A DNA stretch of 5,366 bases, taken from Spirochaetales bacterium (GTDB lineage: Bacteria; Spirochaetota; Spirochaetia; Sphaerochaetales; Sphaerochaetaceae). Positions 1 through 5,366 of this stretch are shown piece by piece. The stretch is taken from assembly GCA_017962865.1 (NCBI GenBank), contig JAGCUM010000195.1, positions 1 through 5,366 of the forward strand. The letters are read 5' to 3'. The notes under the pieces are model-generated. The model was not told the DNA's origin. It did no database searches and saw nothing but the letters and a program-made list of their open reading frames with translations. Both the position numbers and the translations under genes were made by a program. Each line of letters begins with the position of its first letter. The first letter of the stretch is position 1.

Positions 1-42
1 ATCCCAAATTCTCGTAGGAGCTGCACCGGTGCCGCCCCTGAA
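1..42 (-). pseudogene. Continuation of the synthase frame beyond the in-frame TGA
   Basis: Reading on past TGA 43-45 in the same frame gives FRGGTGAAPTRIWD up to the window edge. This is the conserved loop that follows GADIIAID in glutamate synthase barrels (family pattern IDG-x-RGGTGAAP), so the frame is intact on both sides of the stop. A single GGA-to-TGA change explains the break, and no frameshift is needed. The rest of the gene lies left of the window. Confidence 0.75.
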
Positions 43-1050
43 TCAGTCGATGGCTATGATGTCGGCACCGCTTCTGGCTATACCGCTTGCAATTGCCGCA
101 ATGTTGTGTACTGCAGCAACCTTTACTATCACGGGTTTTTCGTACTTCGTGGCTTCCTTCAGGGAGAAGACCAGCTGTCTCAGGTCCTCGATGGAATAGA
201 TGTCATGATGCGGGGCCGGTGAAATAGCATCGGAGCCTTCCGGAATCATCCTGGTTCTGGAAATATCTCCGACTATCTTCATTCCCGGCAGATGCCCGCC
301 GATACCGGGTTTGGCACCGTGCCCCATCTTGATTTCTATGGCCGCTCCGGCCTCCAGATAGTCATCATGCACTCCGAAACGACCGCTTGCGACCTGCACT
401 ATCGTGTTGGCACCGTACTGATAGAAATCTTCATGAAGACCTCCCTCTCCTGTGTTGTACAGGATTCCCAATCGGCTTGCGGCTCTTGCAAGTGAAGCAT
501 GTGCGTTGTAACTGATGGAACCGTAACTCATTGCGGAAAACATCACAGGCATGGAAAGCTCTATCTGGGGAGGAATATCGCAGATGATCTTTCCATCTCC
601 GTCCCTACTGATCTTTTCCGGTTTCTTTCCCAGCGTCACCCGGGTTTCCATCGGCTCTCGGAGAGGATCTATAGGCGGATTCGTAACCGGTGAAGCAGTG
701 ATGAGGATTCTGTCCCAGTAGACCGGACGCGGCTTCGGAGTTCCCCTGGATGAAAGCAGAACACCGCCGCTTGATGCCTGCTTGTATATCTCCTTGATCG
801 TGTCATTCTGCCAGTTTGCGTTCTCTCTGAGCACACAGTCGCTCTTGACTATTTTCAGAGCTCTGGTAGGACACAGCGATACGCATCGCTGACAGTCCAC
901 GCACTTTCTCTCGTCACTCATCATAATCCCGCGCTCGGGACTGTAGTGGTGGACTTCGTTTGCACATTGGCGCTCACATACACGACAGGTGATGCATCTG
1001 GCCTCGTTGCGGATTACTTCGAATTCAGGATAGATGAAATCAACCGTCAT
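43..1050 (-). CDS. gltB2: Split glutamate synthase, FMN/synthase subunit with two [4Fe-4S] motifs; frame broken by TGA
   Basis: This is the central synthase subunit of a split (archaeal/clostridial-type) GOGAT, which reductively aminates 2-oxoglutarate to glutamate in the cytoplasm. Residues 1-65 are ferredoxin-like, with C19/C22/C25/C29 and C50/C53/C56/C60 each spaced as a [4Fe-4S] ligand set. From about residue 95 the FMN-binding synthase barrel begins: GGVLLSSRGTP (95-105), NTGEGG (199-204) and GHGAKPGIGGHLPG (243-256) are recognisable family motifs. The start ATG (1048-1050) has an AGGGGG site 7 bases upstream and overlaps the glutaminase stop, so the two genes are probably translationally coupled. 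The frame ends at TGA 43-45 directly after GADIIAID. The family continues here with Gly-Phe/Leu-Arg-Gly-Gly-Thr-Gly, and the expected continuation is present beyond the stop. At 335 residues it lacks the rest of the barrel and the 3Fe-4S cysteines. Family assignment is secure. Whether the product is functional is doubtful unless the TGA is a sequence error. The name follows the informal GltB1/GltB2 convention. Confidence 0.9.
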   Translation of the reverse strand: MTVDFIYPEFEVIRNEARCITCRVCERQCANEVHHYSPERGIMMSDERKCVDCQRCVSLCPTRALKIVKSDCVLRENANWQNDTIKEIYKQASSGGVLLSSRGTPKPRPVYWDRILITASPVTNPPIDPLREPMETRVTLGKKPEKISRDGDGKIICDIPPQIELSMPVMFSAMSYGSISYNAHASLARAASRLGILYNTGEGGLHEDFYQYGANTIVQVASGRFGVHDDYLEAGAAIEIKMGHGAKPGIGGHLPGMKIVGDISRTRMIPEGSDAISPAPHHDIYSIEDLRQLVFSLKEATKYEKPVIVKVAAVHNIAAIASGIARSGADIIAID

Positions 1051-1063
1051 TACTCCACCCCCT
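1048..1063 (-). promoter_or_regulatory. Coupled stop/start with Shine-Dalgarno between the GOGAT subunit genes
   Basis: The glutaminase stop TAA (1050-1052) and the synthase ATG (1048-1050) share one base (TAATG). AGGGGG at 1058-1063 lies 7 bases before the ATG, inside the upstream gene. This arrangement favours translational coupling and balanced synthesis of the two subunits. Confidence 0.7.
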
Positions 1064-2144
1064 TTTCTACCCTGACAACTACAGGCTCTCCGCCTCTGGG
1101 GGCCCAGATGTTCTCTGCATCAGGTTCCATCGTACGTATGGCAGCTTCCTCGCTGGCAATGAATACCCTGTCATCCTTCTCCCCGACCACCATGGACCTG
1201 AGCTTCAGACGATCGTTCAGAGCCATAAGTCCGCCATCGAAACCAAGGATTATAGAGAAAGGCCCGGTTATCAGAAGACTCGGAAATACTGTCCTGAGAA
1301 AAGCGTGCCTCTTGCTGAGTTCCCGGTCTTTCTCACCTGCAATGGTGCTCCAGAACGGTGCGGCGATGACGTTAGTGGCCTCTTCCAGGGTCAGGCCCTG
1401 CCTGCGGACCAGGTAGTCCAGGATATAGGTAATCACTTCGGTATCGGTCTGTAGCGTACATTTGTAACCGAACATCTCTATGAATCGGCGGTTGGCATCA
1501 TAGGAGGAGATTTCACCGTTGTGGACAACCGAATAATCCAGAAGCGTAAACGGATGTGCCCCGCCCCACCAGCCCGGTGTATTGGTCGGATATCTTCCAT
1601 GGGCAGTCCAGCTGTAGCCTTCATATTCCTCCAGTCTGTAGAATTCACCTACGTCTTCCGGAAAACCGACGGCTTTGAAGGTGCCCATGTTCTTTCCGCT
1701 GGAAAAAACATAAGCCCCGCTGATGCTGGAGTTGATCTTCATTACCGCGCGGGCTACGAATTCCTTCTCATCCAGCTGCAGATTTGCCAGCATCGACTTG
1801 AGCGGATCCAGGAAATAGCGCCATATGATCGGTTCGTCAGTAATCTCCGGAATCTTGCGTGTAGGGATGATTTCGGATTTGACTATCTCGAAATACTCTT
1901 TGAGGAATACTTCGCATTCCTTCTGAGTGGATCTGTCATCGAAGAAGACATGCAGAGCATAGTACTCTTTCATATCCGGATAGATTCCGTATCCGGAAAA
2001 ACCACCGCCGAGACCATTGCTTCTGTCGTGCATCGGTTTCATGGAATTGACTATCATCCCGCCCGACATGGTCCGGCCTTCCCTTGAGATGACTGCGGAA
2101 ATGGCGCAGCCTGAAGGTATGCGTATCTGTCCTTCCTTTTCCAT
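1050..2144 (-). CDS. gltB1: Split glutamate synthase, class II glutamine amidotransferase (glutaminase) subunit
   Basis: This stand-alone class II (Ntn-type) glutaminase subunit of a split GOGAT hydrolyses glutamine and passes ammonia to the synthase subunit. The likely nucleophile is C13, in SGCAISAVIS. The 12 residues before it would have to be removed for C13 to become N-terminal, as is known for GOGAT propeptides. Other class II landmarks are H182-G183-R184 within AHGRYPTNTP, the oxyanion-hole H208-N209-G210-E211, and D234 in QTDTEV. Its 364 residues fit a single-domain subunit, not the full-length (about 1500 residue) bacterial GltB. The start is supported by AAGGAG at 2154-2159, 9 bases upstream. 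It is first in the leftward operon, overlaps the synthase gene by one base, and is preceded by a promoter and a U-tailed hairpin. It could in principle feed another ammonia-using synthase, but the adjacent synthase subunit makes GOGAT by far the best call. Confidence 0.92.
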   Translation of the reverse strand: MEKEGQIRIPSGCAISAVISREGRTMSGGMIVNSMKPMHDRSNGLGGGFSGYGIYPDMKEYYALHVFFDDRSTQKECEVFLKEYFEIVKSEIIPTRKIPEITDEPIIWRYFLDPLKSMLANLQLDEKEFVARAVMKINSSISGAYVFSSGKNMGTFKAVGFPEDVGEFYRLEEYEGYSWTAHGRYPTNTPGWWGGAHPFTLLDYSVVHNGEISSYDANRRFIEMFGYKCTLQTDTEVITYILDYLVRRQGLTLEEATNVIAAPFWSTIAGEKDRELSKRHAFLRTVFPSLLITGPFSIILGFDGGLMALNDRLKLRSMVVGEKDDRVFIASEEAAIRTMEPDAENIWAPRGGEPVVVRVEKGVE

Positions 2145-2153
2145 TCGCCTCTT

Positions 2154-2159
2154 CTCCTT
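2154..2159 (-). promoter_or_regulatory. Shine-Dalgarno site of the glutaminase gene
   Basis: AAGGAG on the minus strand, 9 bases before the ATG at 2142-2144. It overlaps the last base of the TGA (2159-2161) that ends the short frame in the leader, so a ribosome finishing that frame would sit on this site. Confidence 0.7.
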
Positions 2160-2233
2160 CAGAGAAATAAAAAAGCAAAGGCGCTCATTGGCATACGGAA
2201 TCTATCCATATGTGAATGAACGCCTTTGCTCAT
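2159..2233 (-). CDS. Possible leaderless leader peptide upstream of the glutaminase gene (24 codons)
   Basis: The ATG at 2231-2233 lies about two bases from the predicted transcript start. It opens 24 codons that begin MSKGV, end in a Phe/Leu-rich tail (SAFAFLFL), and stop with TGA at 2159-2161 inside the Shine-Dalgarno region. The frame runs through the entire terminator-like hairpin, so translation would oppose hairpin formation. There is no Shine-Dalgarno site, so it would have to be leaderless. A stop-free run of this length is not unlikely by chance; the main support is the matching arrangement in the opposite leader. It contains no Glu or Gln codons, so classical attenuation by Gln/Glu starvation is not indicated. 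Confidence 0.3.
   Translation of the reverse strand: MSKGVHSHMDRFRMPMSAFAFLFL
2165..2230 (-). terminator. Terminator-like attenuator hairpin in the leader of the GOGAT operon
   Basis: AGCAAAGGCG (minus strand, 2230-2221) pairs perfectly with CGCCTTTGCT (2183-2174). After one mismatch the stem continues with TTCATT-side pairing 2215-2219/2185-2189, then after another mismatch 2209-2213/2191-2195 (one G.U), and then GGA/TCC (2206-2208 region) closing a five-base loop near 2200-2204. On the minus strand the 3' arm runs straight into TTTTTATTT (2173-2165). On the plus strand the tail is weaker, so the terminator points leftward into the operon. It lies between the predicted transcript start (about 2235) and the Shine-Dalgarno site, which makes it an attenuator candidate and not an end-of-gene terminator. 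Confidence 0.7.
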
Positions 2234-2235
2234 TT
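2220..2235 (-). repeat. Shared transcript-start element, GOGAT copy
   Basis: The minus strand reads AAATGAGCAAAGGCGT, starting exactly 7 bases after the last base of the -10 box. The glutamine synthetase leader has AAATGAAGGCAAAGGCGT at the same offset. The two copies are identical apart from a two-base insertion. In both, the GCAAAGGCG part forms the 5' arm of a U-tailed hairpin. Confidence 0.7.
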
Positions 2236-2241
2236 TTAGCT

Positions 2242-2271
2242 GTTATACCCCAAGGCTTTGCGAAATGTCAA
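2242..2271 (-). promoter_or_regulatory. Sigma-70-type promoter for the GOGAT operon
   Basis: On the minus strand there is a perfect -35 TTGACA (2271-2266), an 18-base spacer and -10 TATAAC (2247-2242, 5 of 6 matches to TATAAT). The predicted start is near 2235, giving a leader of about 90 bases before the glutaminase ATG. It is back to back with the glutamine synthetase promoter, with 16 bases between the two -35 boxes. Confidence 0.75.
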
Positions 2272-2287
2272 GGAAGTGGCATAGCAG

Positions 2288-2317
2288 TTGACATCATCGG
2301 CGGTGTTGGTCTATAGT
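2288..2317 (+). promoter_or_regulatory. Sigma-70-type promoter for glutamine synthetase
   Basis: Perfect -35 TTGACA (2288-2293), an 18-base spacer and -10 TATAGT (2312-2317, 5 of 6 matches to TATAAT). The predicted start is near 2324, giving a leader of about 80 bases. Spacer length and the offset from -10 to the AAATGA element are the same as in the opposing GOGAT promoter. Confidence 0.75.
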
Positions 2318-2323
2318 CATCGC

Positions 2324-2341
2324 AAATGAAGGCAAAGGCGT
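2324..2341 (+). repeat. Shared transcript-start element, glutamine synthetase copy
   Basis: AAATGAAGGCAAAGGCGT begins 7 bases after the last base of the -10 box and supplies the 5' arm of the downstream hairpin. It matches the GOGAT-side element (minus strand 2235-2220) except for two extra bases after AAATGA. Confidence 0.7.
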
Positions 2342-2403
2342 CTTCGGGTTTCATACCCGGGGACGCCTTTTTTCGTATCACTGACCGATGCAAGGAGTTT
2401 TGA
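2326..2403 (+). CDS. Possible leaderless leader peptide upstream of glutamine synthetase (25 codons)
   Basis: The ATG at 2326-2328 is about two bases from the predicted transcript start. It opens 25 codons that begin MKAKASSGF, continue through the hairpin and T tract (GDAFFR), and end KEF-TGA at 2401-2403, one base before the glutamine synthetase ATG. There is no upstream Shine-Dalgarno site, so initiation would be leaderless. Translation would melt the terminator hairpin and end beside the synthetase start. Coding evidence is weak on its own (short, one Glu codon, no Gln); support comes from the mirror-image frame in the GOGAT leader. Confidence 0.3.
   Translation: MKAKASSGFIPGDAFFRITDRCKEF
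2334..2373 (+). terminator. Terminator-like attenuator hairpin in the glutamine synthetase leader
   Basis: AAAGGCGTC (2334-2342) pairs perfectly with GACGCCTTT (2362-2370). The stem continues through two G.U pairs (2343/2361, 2344/2360) and five Watson-Crick pairs (2345-2349/2355-2359) to a TTCAT loop (2350-2354), giving 16 uninterrupted pairs. The T run 2368-2373 follows the GC-rich part. It has the form of a strong intrinsic terminator. It lies between the promoter and the Shine-Dalgarno site of the gene it precedes, and its tail orientation favours rightward termination. It could alternatively be a 5' stabilising hairpin. Confidence 0.8.
2392..2397 (+). promoter_or_regulatory. Shine-Dalgarno site of glutamine synthetase
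   Basis: AAGGAG ends 7 bases before the ATG at 2405-2407. It is outside the attenuator hairpin, so the hairpin does not mask it. It fixes the start codon choice. Confidence 0.85.
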
Positions 2404-2404
2404 A

Positions 2405-4501
2405 ATGAAGACGGTATCAGATTATTTCGGAAGTATGGTGTTTGACGATCGTGCGATGAGAGCCTCTCTATCAGCAGATGTTTATGCATCTCTGCGCAAG
2501 ACCATCGATGAAGGAAGTGCATTGGACATCAGTGTTGCGAATGCCGTTGCTGAAGCCATGAAGAACTGGGCAGTCTCAAAGGGGGCCACCCACTTCACCC
2601 ATTGGTTCCAACCTCTTACGGGAATCACTGCGGAAAAGCATGAAGCGTTCATAAGCCCTTCTCCGGACGGCAGCGTCATCATGGAGTTCTCAGGCAAAGA
2701 GCTGATCAAGGGAGAACCGGATGCATCTTCCTTCCCTTCCGGAGGTCTGAGGGCAACATTCGAGGCCCGGGGCTATACTGCATGGGACCCGACTTCCTAC
2801 GCATTCATGAAAGGCAAGACCCTGTGTATCCCCACGGCATTCTGCTCCTACGGCGGGCCGGCTCTGGATAAGAAAACGCCGCTTCTGAGATCCATGGAGG
2901 TTCTCAGCAAACAGGCCCTGAGAATCCTCAGACTCTTCGGAAATGACACTGCGAAACGGGTCATCTCCTCAGTAGGACCCGAGCAGGAATACTTCCTGAT
3001 AACACGCGAGATGTATGAGAAACGCCCTGACCTGCGATTCTCCGGCAGAACGCTCTTCGGAGCAAAACCGCCGAAGGGACAGGAACTTGACGATCACTAC
3101 TTCGGAGTCATCAAACCCAGCGTGTCAGCCTTCATGGAAGACCTGAACGACGAACTCTGGAAACTCGGGATCCTGGCAAAGACAGAGCATAACGAAGTGG
3201 CTCCCGCACAGCATGAGCTTGCCCCGATCTACAGTACCACAAACATCGCAACCGACCACAACCAGCTGACCATGGAAATGATGCAGAAAGTCGCTGCAAG
3301 GCACGGTCTCGTATGCCTGCTTCACGAAAAACCCTTTGCAGGCGTCAACGGAAGCGGAAAGCACAACAACTGGTCGATTGCAACCGACAGCGGGCAGAAT
3401 CTCCTTTCCCCCGGAGATACTCCATATGAGAACGCACAGTTTCTGATTTTCCTCTGTGCCGTTATCAAGGCCGTGGATGATTATCAGGATCTGTTGCGTA
3501 TCTCTGTGGCAACAGCAGGCAATGACCATCGTCTGGGAGCGAACGAGGCACCCCCTGCAGTCATCTCCATCTTCCTCGGGGATGAGCTTAATGCAGTGCT
3601 GGAAGCCATAGAGGCAGATACCCCTTACAAGGGAACCAAGAAGAAAGTGATGCGCCTGGGCGCTGAAGTTCTTCCCAAGTTCAACAGGGACACCACGGAC
3701 CGCAACAGGACGAGCCCGTTCGCATACACCGGAAACAAGTTCGAGTTCCGCATGCTCGGTTCCTCAAACAGCATCGCCTGCACCAACATCATGCTCAACA
3801 GTGCCGTCGCAGAAAGCCTCAGGGTCTTTGCCGACAGCCTTGAGAAGGCAAAGGATTTCGAAAGTGAGCTCCATGACCTCATCAGGGATACCATCCGTGA
3901 ACACAAGAGAATCATCTTCAACGGAAACGGCTATGACGATGCATGGATAGAAGAAGCCACGAAAAAACGCGGGCTGTTGAACTACAGGACAACTGCAGAC
4001 TGCATGCCGCATCTTCTGGACGAAAAGAATGTGACAATGCTCACATCTCTTGGCGTTTTCACGGACGAGGAACTGCGATCCAGGCGTGACATCATGCTTG
4101 AAAACTACTGCAAGAGCGTGGTGATAGAGGCCCGTACCATGATCAGCATGGCAAGGACCTTGATTGCCCCTGCAATCGAGGAATACTCCGCCGATGTAGC
4201 CAGGGCCGCAAGTGCAAAGAAATCACTTTCCTCAGACATTTCCTGTACCTATGAGAAGAACCTTGTCAGGAAGCTTTCGGATCTGCTTGACGAAATCTGT
4301 ACGAAGACCGATGCCCTTGATTCGGTACTTCCGCTTCTGCAGGATACAGAGGACATAGTTGAAGAATCGGCAGTGGTGCGCGACAGACTTCTTCCTGCCA
4401 TGGATGAGTTACGCATTCCCTGCGATGAAGCAGAAGTTCTCACGGACAAGAAGTACTGGCCGTTCCCAACCTATTCAGATCTGCTGTTCGGTGTCAAATG
4501 A
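2405..4501 (+). CDS. glnN: Glutamine synthetase type III
   Basis: Cytoplasmic ATP-dependent ligase making glutamine from glutamate and ammonium. At 698 residues it fits the GSIII family (about 700) and is much longer than GSI (about 450-470). Visible landmarks: the GSIII-specific N-terminal block GATHFTHWFQPLTGITAEKH (60-79); GPEQEYF (191-197) with metal-site glutamates; HNEVAPAQHELAP (262-274); NGSGKHNNWS (315-324), the counterpart of the glutamate/ATP-binding loop; RLGANEAPPAVIS (376-388); and DRNRTSPFAYTGNKFEFRM (432-450), with the arginines that contact phosphate and substrate. The C-terminal end YWPFPTYSDLLFGVK is a normal GSIII ending, so its TGA is a true stop. This argues against UGA reassignment in this genome. 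The start is set by AAGGAG at 2392-2397. The gene is divergent from the GOGAT operon and preceded by a promoter and an attenuator-like hairpin. GSIII is thought to form double-ring dodecamers. I see no missing catalytic motif. Confidence 0.97.
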   Translation: MKTVSDYFGSMVFDDRAMRASLSADVYASLRKTIDEGSALDISVANAVAEAMKNWAVSKGATHFTHWFQPLTGITAEKHEAFISPSPDGSVIMEFSGKELIKGEPDASSFPSGGLRATFEARGYTAWDPTSYAFMKGKTLCIPTAFCSYGGPALDKKTPLLRSMEVLSKQALRILRLFGNDTAKRVISSVGPEQEYFLITREMYEKRPDLRFSGRTLFGAKPPKGQELDDHYFGVIKPSVSAFMEDLNDELWKLGILAKTEHNEVAPAQHELAPIYSTTNIATDHNQLTMEMMQKVAARHGLVCLLHEKPFAGVNGSGKHNNWSIATDSGQNLLSPGDTPYENAQFLIFLCAVIKAVDDYQDLLRISVATAGNDHRLGANEAPPAVISIFLGDELNAVLEAIEADTPYKGTKKKVMRLGAEVLPKFNRDTTDRNRTSPFAYTGNKFEFRMLGSSNSIACTNIMLNSAVAESLRVFADSLEKAKDFESELHDLIRDTIREHKRIIFNGNGYDDAWIEEATKKRGLLNYRTTADCMPHLLDEKNVTMLTSLGVFTDEELRSRRDIMLENYCKSVVIEARTMISMARTLIAPAIEEYSADVARAASAKKSLSSDISCTYEKNLVRKLSDLLDEICTKTDALDSVLPLLQDTEDIVEESAVVRDRLLPAMDELRIPCDEAEVLTDKKYWPFPTYSDLLFGVK

Positions 4502-4524
4502 TGTCCTGATTTCAGGGTTATAAT

Positions 4525-5366
4525 CTATTTTTCGAACAGTTTCAGCAGTTTCATCTTCCTCTGACCGGCCTTGCCTCCGTAAGGATGCTCCCTCAGAGGA
4601 AGATTCATGTGTGTCTTTCCCTTGAGCACGGAAGTCGGGTGCGTGAATTCCCTGAAACCCCATTCGCCGTGGTAGGCACCCATGCCCGAGTGTCCGGTTC
4701 CGTTGAAAGGCACGCCCTTGACCATCATGTGGATGCAGACCTCGTTGATGCATCCTCCGCCGTACTGCATACTCGTCATCACCTTCCTGGCCCATTTCAT
4801 GTCGGATGTGAATACATACAGGGCCAGCGGATGCTCCCTGTCTGCAATCAGGTCCATGATCGAGTCAATCTCATCGTCCTTGCACGGGACAACGGGAAGA
4901 AGCGGACAGAAGAGCTCATGCATCACGAGATCCTCATCGGAACCGACCGGATAGATGATTGTGGGAGAGAAACGGCAGCTTGCCCTGTCGCCCGTGCCGC
5001 CGAAGACAATCCTGTCGCTGTACTCCGAGCTCAGGCGTTCGCACTTGTCATAGACCGACGGCGTGATGAGCTTCGGATACTCGGGGTTTTCCTCGGCCTT
5101 CTCCCCGATCTGTCTTATGAACTCGGCCTTCAGATAACCCAGAAACTCGTTTGCAACCTCGTCTGCTACGGCAATCTGGTTGATGTTTATACAGATCTGG
5201 CCGGCATTGCAGAGCTTGAAGAACGCTCTCTTGCGTGCAGTATCCCTCAGGTCGGCGTCCTTCCTGACAACAGCCCAGTTTCCGGTCTCGCCTCCGAGCT
5301 CGAGTGCAACTGAGGTCAGATTCCGCGAAGCCATCTCGAGAACATGCTTTGCAACCCCGGGGGACC
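4525..5366 (-). CDS. ALDH3-like aldehyde dehydrogenase, C-terminal part (5' end outside window)
   Basis: NAD(P)-dependent oxidation of an unidentified aldehyde to the acid. The frame is open to the right edge, reading SPGVAKHVLEMASRNLTSVA there, so the ATG at 5332-5334 is internal. About 280 residues are present of a family length near 455. Counting from that Met, E12 in LELGG is the general-base glutamate and C48 in NAGQIC (codon 5191-5193) is the catalytic cysteine. HELFCP holds the cofactor-ribose glutamate, INEV the conserved asparagine, and GHSGMGAYHGEWGFREFTHP is the ALDH3 C-terminal signature. Several usually conserved positions differ: ELGGETG for ELGGKSP, FCP for FGP and PFNGTG for PFGGVG. 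Both catalytic residues are kept, so it is probably active, perhaps with unusual substrate or cofactor preference. It ends at TAG 4525-4527, only 23 bases from the convergent glutamine synthetase stop. A link to nitrogen metabolism is not shown. Confidence 0.92.
   Translation of the reverse strand, partial: SPGVAKHVLEMASRNLTSVALELGGETGNWAVVRKDADLRDTARKRAFFKLCNAGQICININQIAVADEVANEFLGYLKAEFIRQIGEKAEENPEYPKLITPSVYDKCERLSSEYSDRIVFGGTGDRASCRFSPTIIYPVGSDEDLVMHELFCPLLPVVPCKDDEIDSIMDLIADREHPLALYVFTSDMKWARKVMTSMQYGGGCINEVCIHMMVKGVPFNGTGHSGMGAYHGEWGFREFTHPTSVLKGKTHMNLPLREHPYGGKAGQRKMKLLKLFEK

Follow-up and report, generated by a model that had tools for sequence, protein, structure and literature searches.

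What connects the genes of type III glutamine synthetase (GSIII) and of the split glutamate synthase (GOGAT) that lie back to back in the DNA discussed here? By the window we mean the whole stretch that was analysed, 5,366 nucleotides from a Spirochaetales bacterium. The GSIII gene and the genes of the GATase and FMN / Fe-S subunits of GOGAT diverge, and behind both of the divergent promoters stands AAATGA(AG)GCAAAGGCGT, which opens a terminator hairpin. Very likely, GSIII and GOGAT are regulated together by an ANTAR-type attenuator. That both leaders of the window are such attenuators under antitermination control has, in our estimate, a probability of about 0.85; the start sites are predicted, and binding and antitermination are presumed.

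The GSIII of the window shares 97% sequence identity with a Spirochaetales protein annotated as glutamine synthetase III, for which the Pfam families PF00120, PF18318 and PF12437 are listed. The GATase has a near-identical copy in the locus L139 (7583-8674) that matches GATase_2 (PF00310), and the L139 copy of the FMN subunit (6078-7580) comprises 501 aa and matches Glu_synthase (PF01645). The DNA of L138 and L139 (genomes G176 and G185) is 95.3% identical to positions 1-4502 of the window, and for this reason the window and these two loci probably represent one species. Some irregularities were seen at the borders. The FMN subunit frame of the window is stopped near 43-45, where the L139 copy continues to its 501 aa; either the gene is broken or the sequence contains an error. 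Right after the GSIII stop (4502-5366) the window and L138/L139 diverge. What follows is amt in L138, another intergenic region in L139 and a convergent aldehyde dehydrogenase gene in the window, which reflects either strain variation or an assembly join. The features of the window are compiled in Table 1.

Table 1. Coordinates of the genes, promoters and leader structures in the window
Feature	Position	Strand	Basis
FMN / Fe-S subunit of split glutamate synthase, 335 aa frame	43..1050	-	ORF
GATase subunit of split glutamate synthase (GOGAT)	1050..2144	-	ORF
GOGAT leader intrinsic terminator, closing with six T (2174-2169)	2169..2233	-	folding, -37.7 kcal/mol
GOGAT leader mini-hairpin AATGAGC[AAAGGC]GTTCATT, loop 2227-2222	2215..2234	-	folding, 7 pairs, -5.2 kcal/mol
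GOGAT promoter, TTGACA (2271-2266), 18-base spacer, TATAAC (2247-2242)	2242..2271	-	read from sequence
GSIII promoter, TTGACA (2288-2293), 18-base spacer, TATAGT (2312-2317)	2288..2317	+	read from sequence
GSIII leader mini-hairpin TGAAGGC[AAAGGC]GTCTTCG, loop 2334-2339	2327..2346	+	folding, 7 pairs counting a U-G; RNAfold -7.0 kcal/mol with 6 pairs
GSIII leader intrinsic terminator, hairpin of 16 pairs (2334-2370), then T run	2334..2373	+	folding, -27.7 kcal/mol
GSIII (type III glutamine synthetase), 698 aa	2405..4501	+	ORF

In both leaders six bases separate the -10 from AAATGA. The latter occupies 2324-2329 in the GSIII leader and is followed by GGCAAAGGCGT; in the GOGAT leader it begins at 2235 and leads over to GCAAAGGCGT and the long hairpin. 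The layout described in the first-pass annotation is therefore correct: on either strand AAATGA begins with base 7 downstream of the -10. Transcription is predicted to start near 2324 and near 2235, respectively. The GOGAT promoter of the near-identical L139 scores 11/12. Both leaders fold far better than their shuffled versions (z -6.9 and -10.3), and their hairpins are identical in L138/L139 except that one has a T run of different length. The Rfam covariance models, which comprise riboswitches, the T-box and the glnA RNA, gave no match in the window at the gathering score. Relaxing the threshold produced 8 matches, all of them to microRNA, sRNA or antisense models and far under the cut-offs. 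A known riboswitch or other Rfam RNA was accordingly discarded as the identity of the element.

The 5' arm of each terminator is a strand that also folds on its own into a mini-hairpin. Mini-hairpin and terminator are thus mutually exclusive in the GSIII leader as well as in the GOGAT leader. The mini-hairpins are far less stable than the terminators, which counts against an attenuator. AAATGA contributes the outer portion of the stem in these mini-hairpins. The first-pass annotation had described it as the start of an entry element nearly identical in the two leaders, and it is indeed present in both; being stem, it is not conserved as a sequence, and other, mostly complementary sequences replace it elsewhere. 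The idea that AAATGA is a protein-binding sequence was given up on the same ground. A resemblance of GGCAANGGNGTC to the ops pause element of RfaH was dropped once the covariation of the stem had appeared.

A hexaloop with A at position 1 and G at position 4 that makes use of the terminator's 5' arm is, according to the parts of Ramesh et al. (PMC3369931) consulted, the recognition element of ANTAR antiterminators. Both window leaders have precisely this: an A1/G4 hexaloop, a stem of at least 3 pairs and an overlap with an intrinsic terminator. It had been stated at first that the element is not a target of ANTAR proteins. The loop, the terminator overlap, the co-occurrence with ANTAR genes and a linked ANTAR gene speak for ANTAR instead, although the second hexaloop of the described family is lacking in this RNA.

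How widely is the structure conserved? The GSIII set consists of the best 80 loci among the matches listed, mostly from Clostridia. GRCAANGGNGTC, a string chosen after reading the leaders of these same loci, is found 49 times in 23,994 bp of GSIII upstream sequence, distributed over 34 of the 80 loci, and 17 times in the 1,658,786 bp elsewhere. A strict promoter pattern is found in 56 of the 80, and in 53 of these the loop could be located by sequence alone, counting L024 and L048, whose loops are in the wrong register. Sought at 8-45 nt from the -10, loop A1 lies 10-23 nt after it in 52 of the 53 and 35 nt after it in one. The consensus of the loop is AA-N-G-R-N, of which the search itself constrained three positions (1 to A/G, 4 to G, 5 to A/G); A2 was free and is found in 48 of 50 distinct sequences. 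In the same 50 sequences stem pair 3 is formed 49 times (shuffled mean 42.0, maximum 47) and stem pair 4 45 times (shuffled mean 28.2, maximum 39). An alignment of 36 leaders contains 14 double-changed cells in the mini-hairpin against 2.2 after shuffling, and 73 against 20.5 in the terminator; some of the 36 had been preselected for a stem of at least 3 pairs, a bias which the stem counts of the 50 GSIII and 53 spirochaete sequences avoid. Just this is expected of an attenuator: two helices of which only one can form at a time, built on a common strand and both under selection.

Of course, T-tailed hairpins are common, and any terminator is expected to be GC-rich in its stem. The leaders might then be constitutive 5' hairpins, i.e., stability elements or plain terminators that resemble each other only as terminators do. 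We consider this hardly credible, since the mini-stem covaries between segments that a terminator would pair elsewhere, and the AANGRN loop, the gene set and the co-occurrence with ANTAR genes would be unexpected of plain terminators.

The element is by no means confined to GSIII. A model, R1, was built from 36 leaders, among them both window leaders and that of L049; its scores for the window follow from this construction and are excluded as evidence. At E <= 0.01 it matches 93 of the 139 genomes of the spirochaete family to which G036 belongs. It also matches 29 of 30 genomes that were chosen by hand and include seed genomes. Forty regions, hand-chosen among the matching spirochaete genomes and no random sample, contain 75 places outside the window; these and the 2 within it were reduced by hand from 121 two-strand match rows. 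For near-palindromic places (L139 8698, L137 3233, L129 5045 and the GOGAT leader of the window) the two strands score within 3 bits, and the gene-facing one was taken. The next gene on the same strand of the 75 places encodes the GOGAT GATase (22), GSIII (14), CTP synthase, PyrG (10), Amt (9), type I GS (9), AsnB (6) or another protein (4); in one case there is none. At least 4 pairs of mini-stem are present at 68 of the 75 places, where CAGC[AAAGGC]GCTG is one class of hairpin. Stem pairs 2, 3 and 4 are formed in 53, 52 and 48 of 53 distinct sequences, with maxima of 50, 48 and 38 in 5000 shuffles. With sites sought 8-26 nt away, 68 places score at least 8/12 for a promoter, and in 63 of these 68 the distance from the -10 to A1 is 10-18 nt. 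An AANGRN loop after the -10 thus characterises most of the GSIII, GOGAT, GSI, asnB, pyrG and amt leaders examined in Clostridia and Spirochaetes. The first-pass annotation had proposed to look for the element upstream of such genes, and it does recur in front of amt, gltB-type genes, asnB and GSIII. A single trans-acting factor that intervenes in early elongation, as proposed at the same time, is compatible with such a shared and conserved element.

A position right behind the promoter, at a narrow distance and with an imperfect inverted repeat, could also suit a DNA-binding regulator that reads the repeat near the start site, the terminator being incidental. The second stem pair of the GSIII set, however, is most often G-T (29 of 50), which is a pair in RNA and not a symmetric dyad in DNA. 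The terminator covaries too, and at 70 of the 75 spirochaete places the next same-strand gene belongs to a set of six nitrogen or glutamine gene types. A DNA-binding regulator is therefore very unlikely.

In 78 of the 80 GSIII loci (L049 and L075 left out) the matches of the model comprise 115 places, reduced by hand from 157 two-strand rows to one row each. They precede GSIII (66), GATase (20), Amt (5) and CTP synthase (3); 21 are unassigned. L045 4891 was kept on the better-scoring strand and hence counts as GATase, but probably belongs to GSIII. Six of the 21 unassigned places precede other identified genes: gdhA (L011 3464-3520), asnA (L062 3830-3875, L073 3865-3909, L076 3881-3929), full-length gltB (L002 4738-4793) and a class-I GATase (L025 10691-10748), which presumably resembles GMP synthase. 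The remaining 15 are without explanation. Directly upstream of GSIII no element was found in some ANTAR-positive genomes, e.g., those of L036, L038 and L041, where GSIII is placed after amt and/or pyrG.

A few of the spirochaete regions have peculiarities of their own. CTP synthase, a glutamine-using enzyme that is seldom grouped with nitrogen assimilation, stands behind its own element in ten regions (L129-L136, L143 and L160). The element-preceded ammonium transporter of L148 (1959-3695) is an Amt fused to a P-II domain (PF00909 + PF00543). In L163 (1591-1633) the element precedes a solute-binding protein (PF00496) and in L156 (2033-2073) a Na+/H+ antiporter-like protein (PF03553); these are possibly extra targets, possibly false matches. 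The leader at L166 2591-2633 is near-identical to the amt leaders of L147/L148, but a different short ORF follows, and no ANTAR was detected in its genome, G108.

Does an ANTAR protein accompany the leaders? In 50 genomes chosen from the 80 GSIII loci, the ANTAR domain (PF03861) was found in 47 (E <= 0.001), 46 of them over the cut-off. It was not found in the genomes of L046, L057 and L064, and that of L061 yielded a weak match only; among these four an element-like hairpin is present in L057 only. In the spirochaete family, 87 of the 139 genomes have an ANTAR gene, and the near-identical relatives of the window, G176 and G185, are among them. R1 matches 81 of these 87 and 12 of the 52 ANTAR-negative genomes, which leaves as exceptions these 12 with matches and 6 ANTAR-positive genomes without. 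GSIII is matched in 134 of the 139. Restricted to these, the ratio is 81 of 87 against 10 of 47, with a Fisher p of about 1e-17, a value that is too small because the genomes are related, and a test that incomplete genomes limit as well.

The gene is not only present but also linked. In both near-identical genomes the ANTAR protein is encoded within the row of GOGAT genes, adjoining a type I GS. L139 has on one strand, in this order, GATase, FMN subunit, Fe-S protein, oxidoreductase, GXGXG subunit, type I GS, ANTAR and asparagine synthetase, which probably form one operon. In all 19 spirochaete cases a type I GS is the same-strand neighbour of the ANTAR ORF; it is also found there in 16 of the 20 non-spirochaete loci with an ANTAR match, the exceptions being L029, L056, L059 and L089.

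The protein of L139 (1846-2445) has a C-terminal ANTAR domain (PF03861, 54.4 bits, cut-off 27.3). In their N-terminal part the ANTAR proteins have a fold that resembles a receiver (model pLDDT 88.9, pTM 0.67). The best fold matches of the model are Rv1626, EutV and AmiR; a profile of 29 such proteins matches Rv1626, AmiR, EutV and NasR. At the position of the phospho-acceptor Asp, L139 has N, as have 22 of the 29; E occurs in 2, H in 1, and D is kept in 4. This accords with an AmiR-like regulator, whose receiver fold has no phospho-acceptor Asp. With EutV numbering matched by eye, at an offset of two, K149, E160 and M172 of EutV are invariant in all 29. The position of Y164 is occupied by His throughout the 29, which AmiR has there too. 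Other contact residues differ, as R168 and R177 of EutV are absent from the profile consensus.

The described targets of ANTAR antitermination carry two hexaloops each, and in eutP neither P1 nor P2 is dispensable in vivo, as stated in the part of PMC3369931 used here. A structure of EutV with RNA later showed that the ANTAR dimer touches one hexaloop, and the minimal motif was redefined to one (Walshe et al. 2022, PMC8934654, in the sections consulted). In the same sections P1 is assigned a recruiting role, and single sites are expected where the polymerase sets no time limit. Why a pair of hexaloops should be required, and how far single ones act, Walshe et al. left open there.

Two tandem hairpins are not what the window leaders have. 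Of 130 leaders, collected by patterns that to some extent prescribe the loop (A/G in position 1, G or A in position 4), 124 form a stem of at least 3 pairs. Upstream, 11 of the 130 have a second A1/G4 hexaloop with at least 4 pairs, where 6.4 would be expected; downstream, 5 do, against an expected 2.5. This is slightly above expectation without clear enrichment, i.e., near chance. A second hexaloop hidden inside the terminator or upstream was therefore dropped. One of the 11 upstream cases is in the window itself: at 2291-2306, in the spacer of the GSIII promoter, ACATC[ATCGGC]GGTGT forms 5 pairs. In L138 and L139 its stem is broken, and it looks like a product of chance. Tandem C-AANGR hexaloop hairpins are seen 20-140 nt downstream in 23 of the 130 leaders, in several cases each with a T-tailed hairpin of its own. 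Since a second hairpin fails to appear, the leaders were not filed in the dual-hairpin ANTAR-target family.

The leaders could still be canonical dual-hexaloop targets, if the real start were further upstream and P1 existed, or if the second hairpin were degenerate. The start sites are, after all, predicted, the hairpin at 2291-2306 ends 20 nt before the GSIII mini-hairpin, and the downstream tandem copies might act as pairs. The 2291-2306 hairpin, however, sits between -35 and -10, the distances of A1 from the -10 given above for 52 of 53 GSIII loci and 63 of 68 spirochaete places are short, and the other A1/G4 hexaloops are near chance. With the loop so close to the predicted start, there is no transcribed room for P1. 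The canonical arrangement thus appears unlikely. To judge from their sequences, these leaders look like natural single-hexaloop antiterminators, and one hexaloop probably does suffice. As a guess, a free dimer that does not depend on phosphorylation might make the recruiting hairpin needless.

How would the ANTAR-type attenuator work? By default, the nascent RNA would fold into the terminator, and transcription would end after about 50-70 nt. An active ANTAR protein, most likely under nitrogen or glutamine limitation, would bind the hexaloop mini-hairpin, i.e., the first 20-25 nt of the transcript. The mini-hairpin would occupy the 5' arm of the terminator, the latter could not form, and the gene would be read. 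One and the same ANTAR protein, whose gene in the near-identical genomes lies in the GOGAT row next to the type I GS, would govern both GSIII and GOGAT; in relatives its targets would also include GSI, asparagine synthetase, CTP synthase and the ammonium transporter. The sequence basis of all this consists of the alternative helices, the covariation, the positions relative to the promoter, the gene set and the co-occurrence and linkage of ANTAR; the binding, the direction of control, the signal, the start sites and the sufficiency of one hexaloop we infer. A bolder version would have a single hexaloop at the 5' end suffice to run a glutamine-economy regulon in Clostridia and Spirochaetes, with the linked GSI as glutamine sensor. 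It is tentative and less likely than not. That the type I GS might sense glutamine by holding the pseudo-receiver ANTAR protein, by analogy to AmiC holding AmiR, is at least as doubtful.

If true, the two-hexaloop rule would be overturned. Natural leaders of the one-hexaloop kind, together with the linked ANTAR gene, open the question of Walshe et al. to a direct test. Such leaders would also explain how a single signal can govern GS, GOGAT, the uptake of ammonium and the synthesis of asparagine and CTP in many gut anaerobes, and the one-hairpin form of the ANTAR target appears to recur before the nitrogen-assimilation genes of many gut bacteria. For annotation, a promoter followed after 10-18 nt by a C-AANGRN-G mini-hairpin inside a terminator may serve as the pattern of such regulons. 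Part of the story is not new. NitR of Clostridium saccharobutylicum reportedly goes back to Stutz et al. 2007. NitR is an ANTAR protein which, according to a passage of a review (PMC6316151), induces the genes of the GS/GOGAT cycle upon nitrogen limitation by antitermination. ANTAR protein, target genes, nitrogen limitation and antitermination would be shared with the system described here. The differences are the spirochaete host, the type III GS and the wider gene set, and the passage gives no RNA target.

The ANTAR-target RNA of eutP, nasF and amiE (Ramesh et al. 2012, PMC3369931) is a close relative in the parts of the paper considered: A1/G4 hexaloop, short stem, terminator overlap, nitrogen genes and co-occurring ANTAR genes all agree. 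The dual-hairpin model had already in 2012 yielded predicted targets in front of glutamate and glutamine synthase genes (PMC3369931; also PMC3369936, each as far as consulted). In contrast to the two hexaloops of that RNA, the window leaders have one, without linker or P1, and at most a few nt lie between the predicted transcript start and the hairpin. With the minimal site of Walshe et al. (PMC8934654) they share the single hexaloop as ANTAR site; they sit, however, on terminators, where the time limit applies, whereas the sections consulted expected single sites elsewhere. Beyond the proposal in PMC8934654, the literature searched, with few subscription papers, contained no description of single-hexaloop antitermination leaders. 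AmiR, finally, lacks a phospho-acceptor and is controlled by a partner protein instead of a kinase, as the sections of PMC8934654 used here have it. The ANTAR protein of the spirochaetes resembles the AmiR of the Pseudomonas AmiR / AmiC pair (1qo0) in its pseudo-receiver, coiled coil and ANTAR domain, by profile as well as by fold; its constant neighbour, in all 19 spirochaete ANTAR ORFs, is a type I GS instead. That an ANTAR protein, NitR, regulates GS/GOGAT genes has been reported in Clostridium; the apparent novelty lies in a leader with one hexaloop at the 5' end of the RNA and in the breadth of its glutamine regulon.
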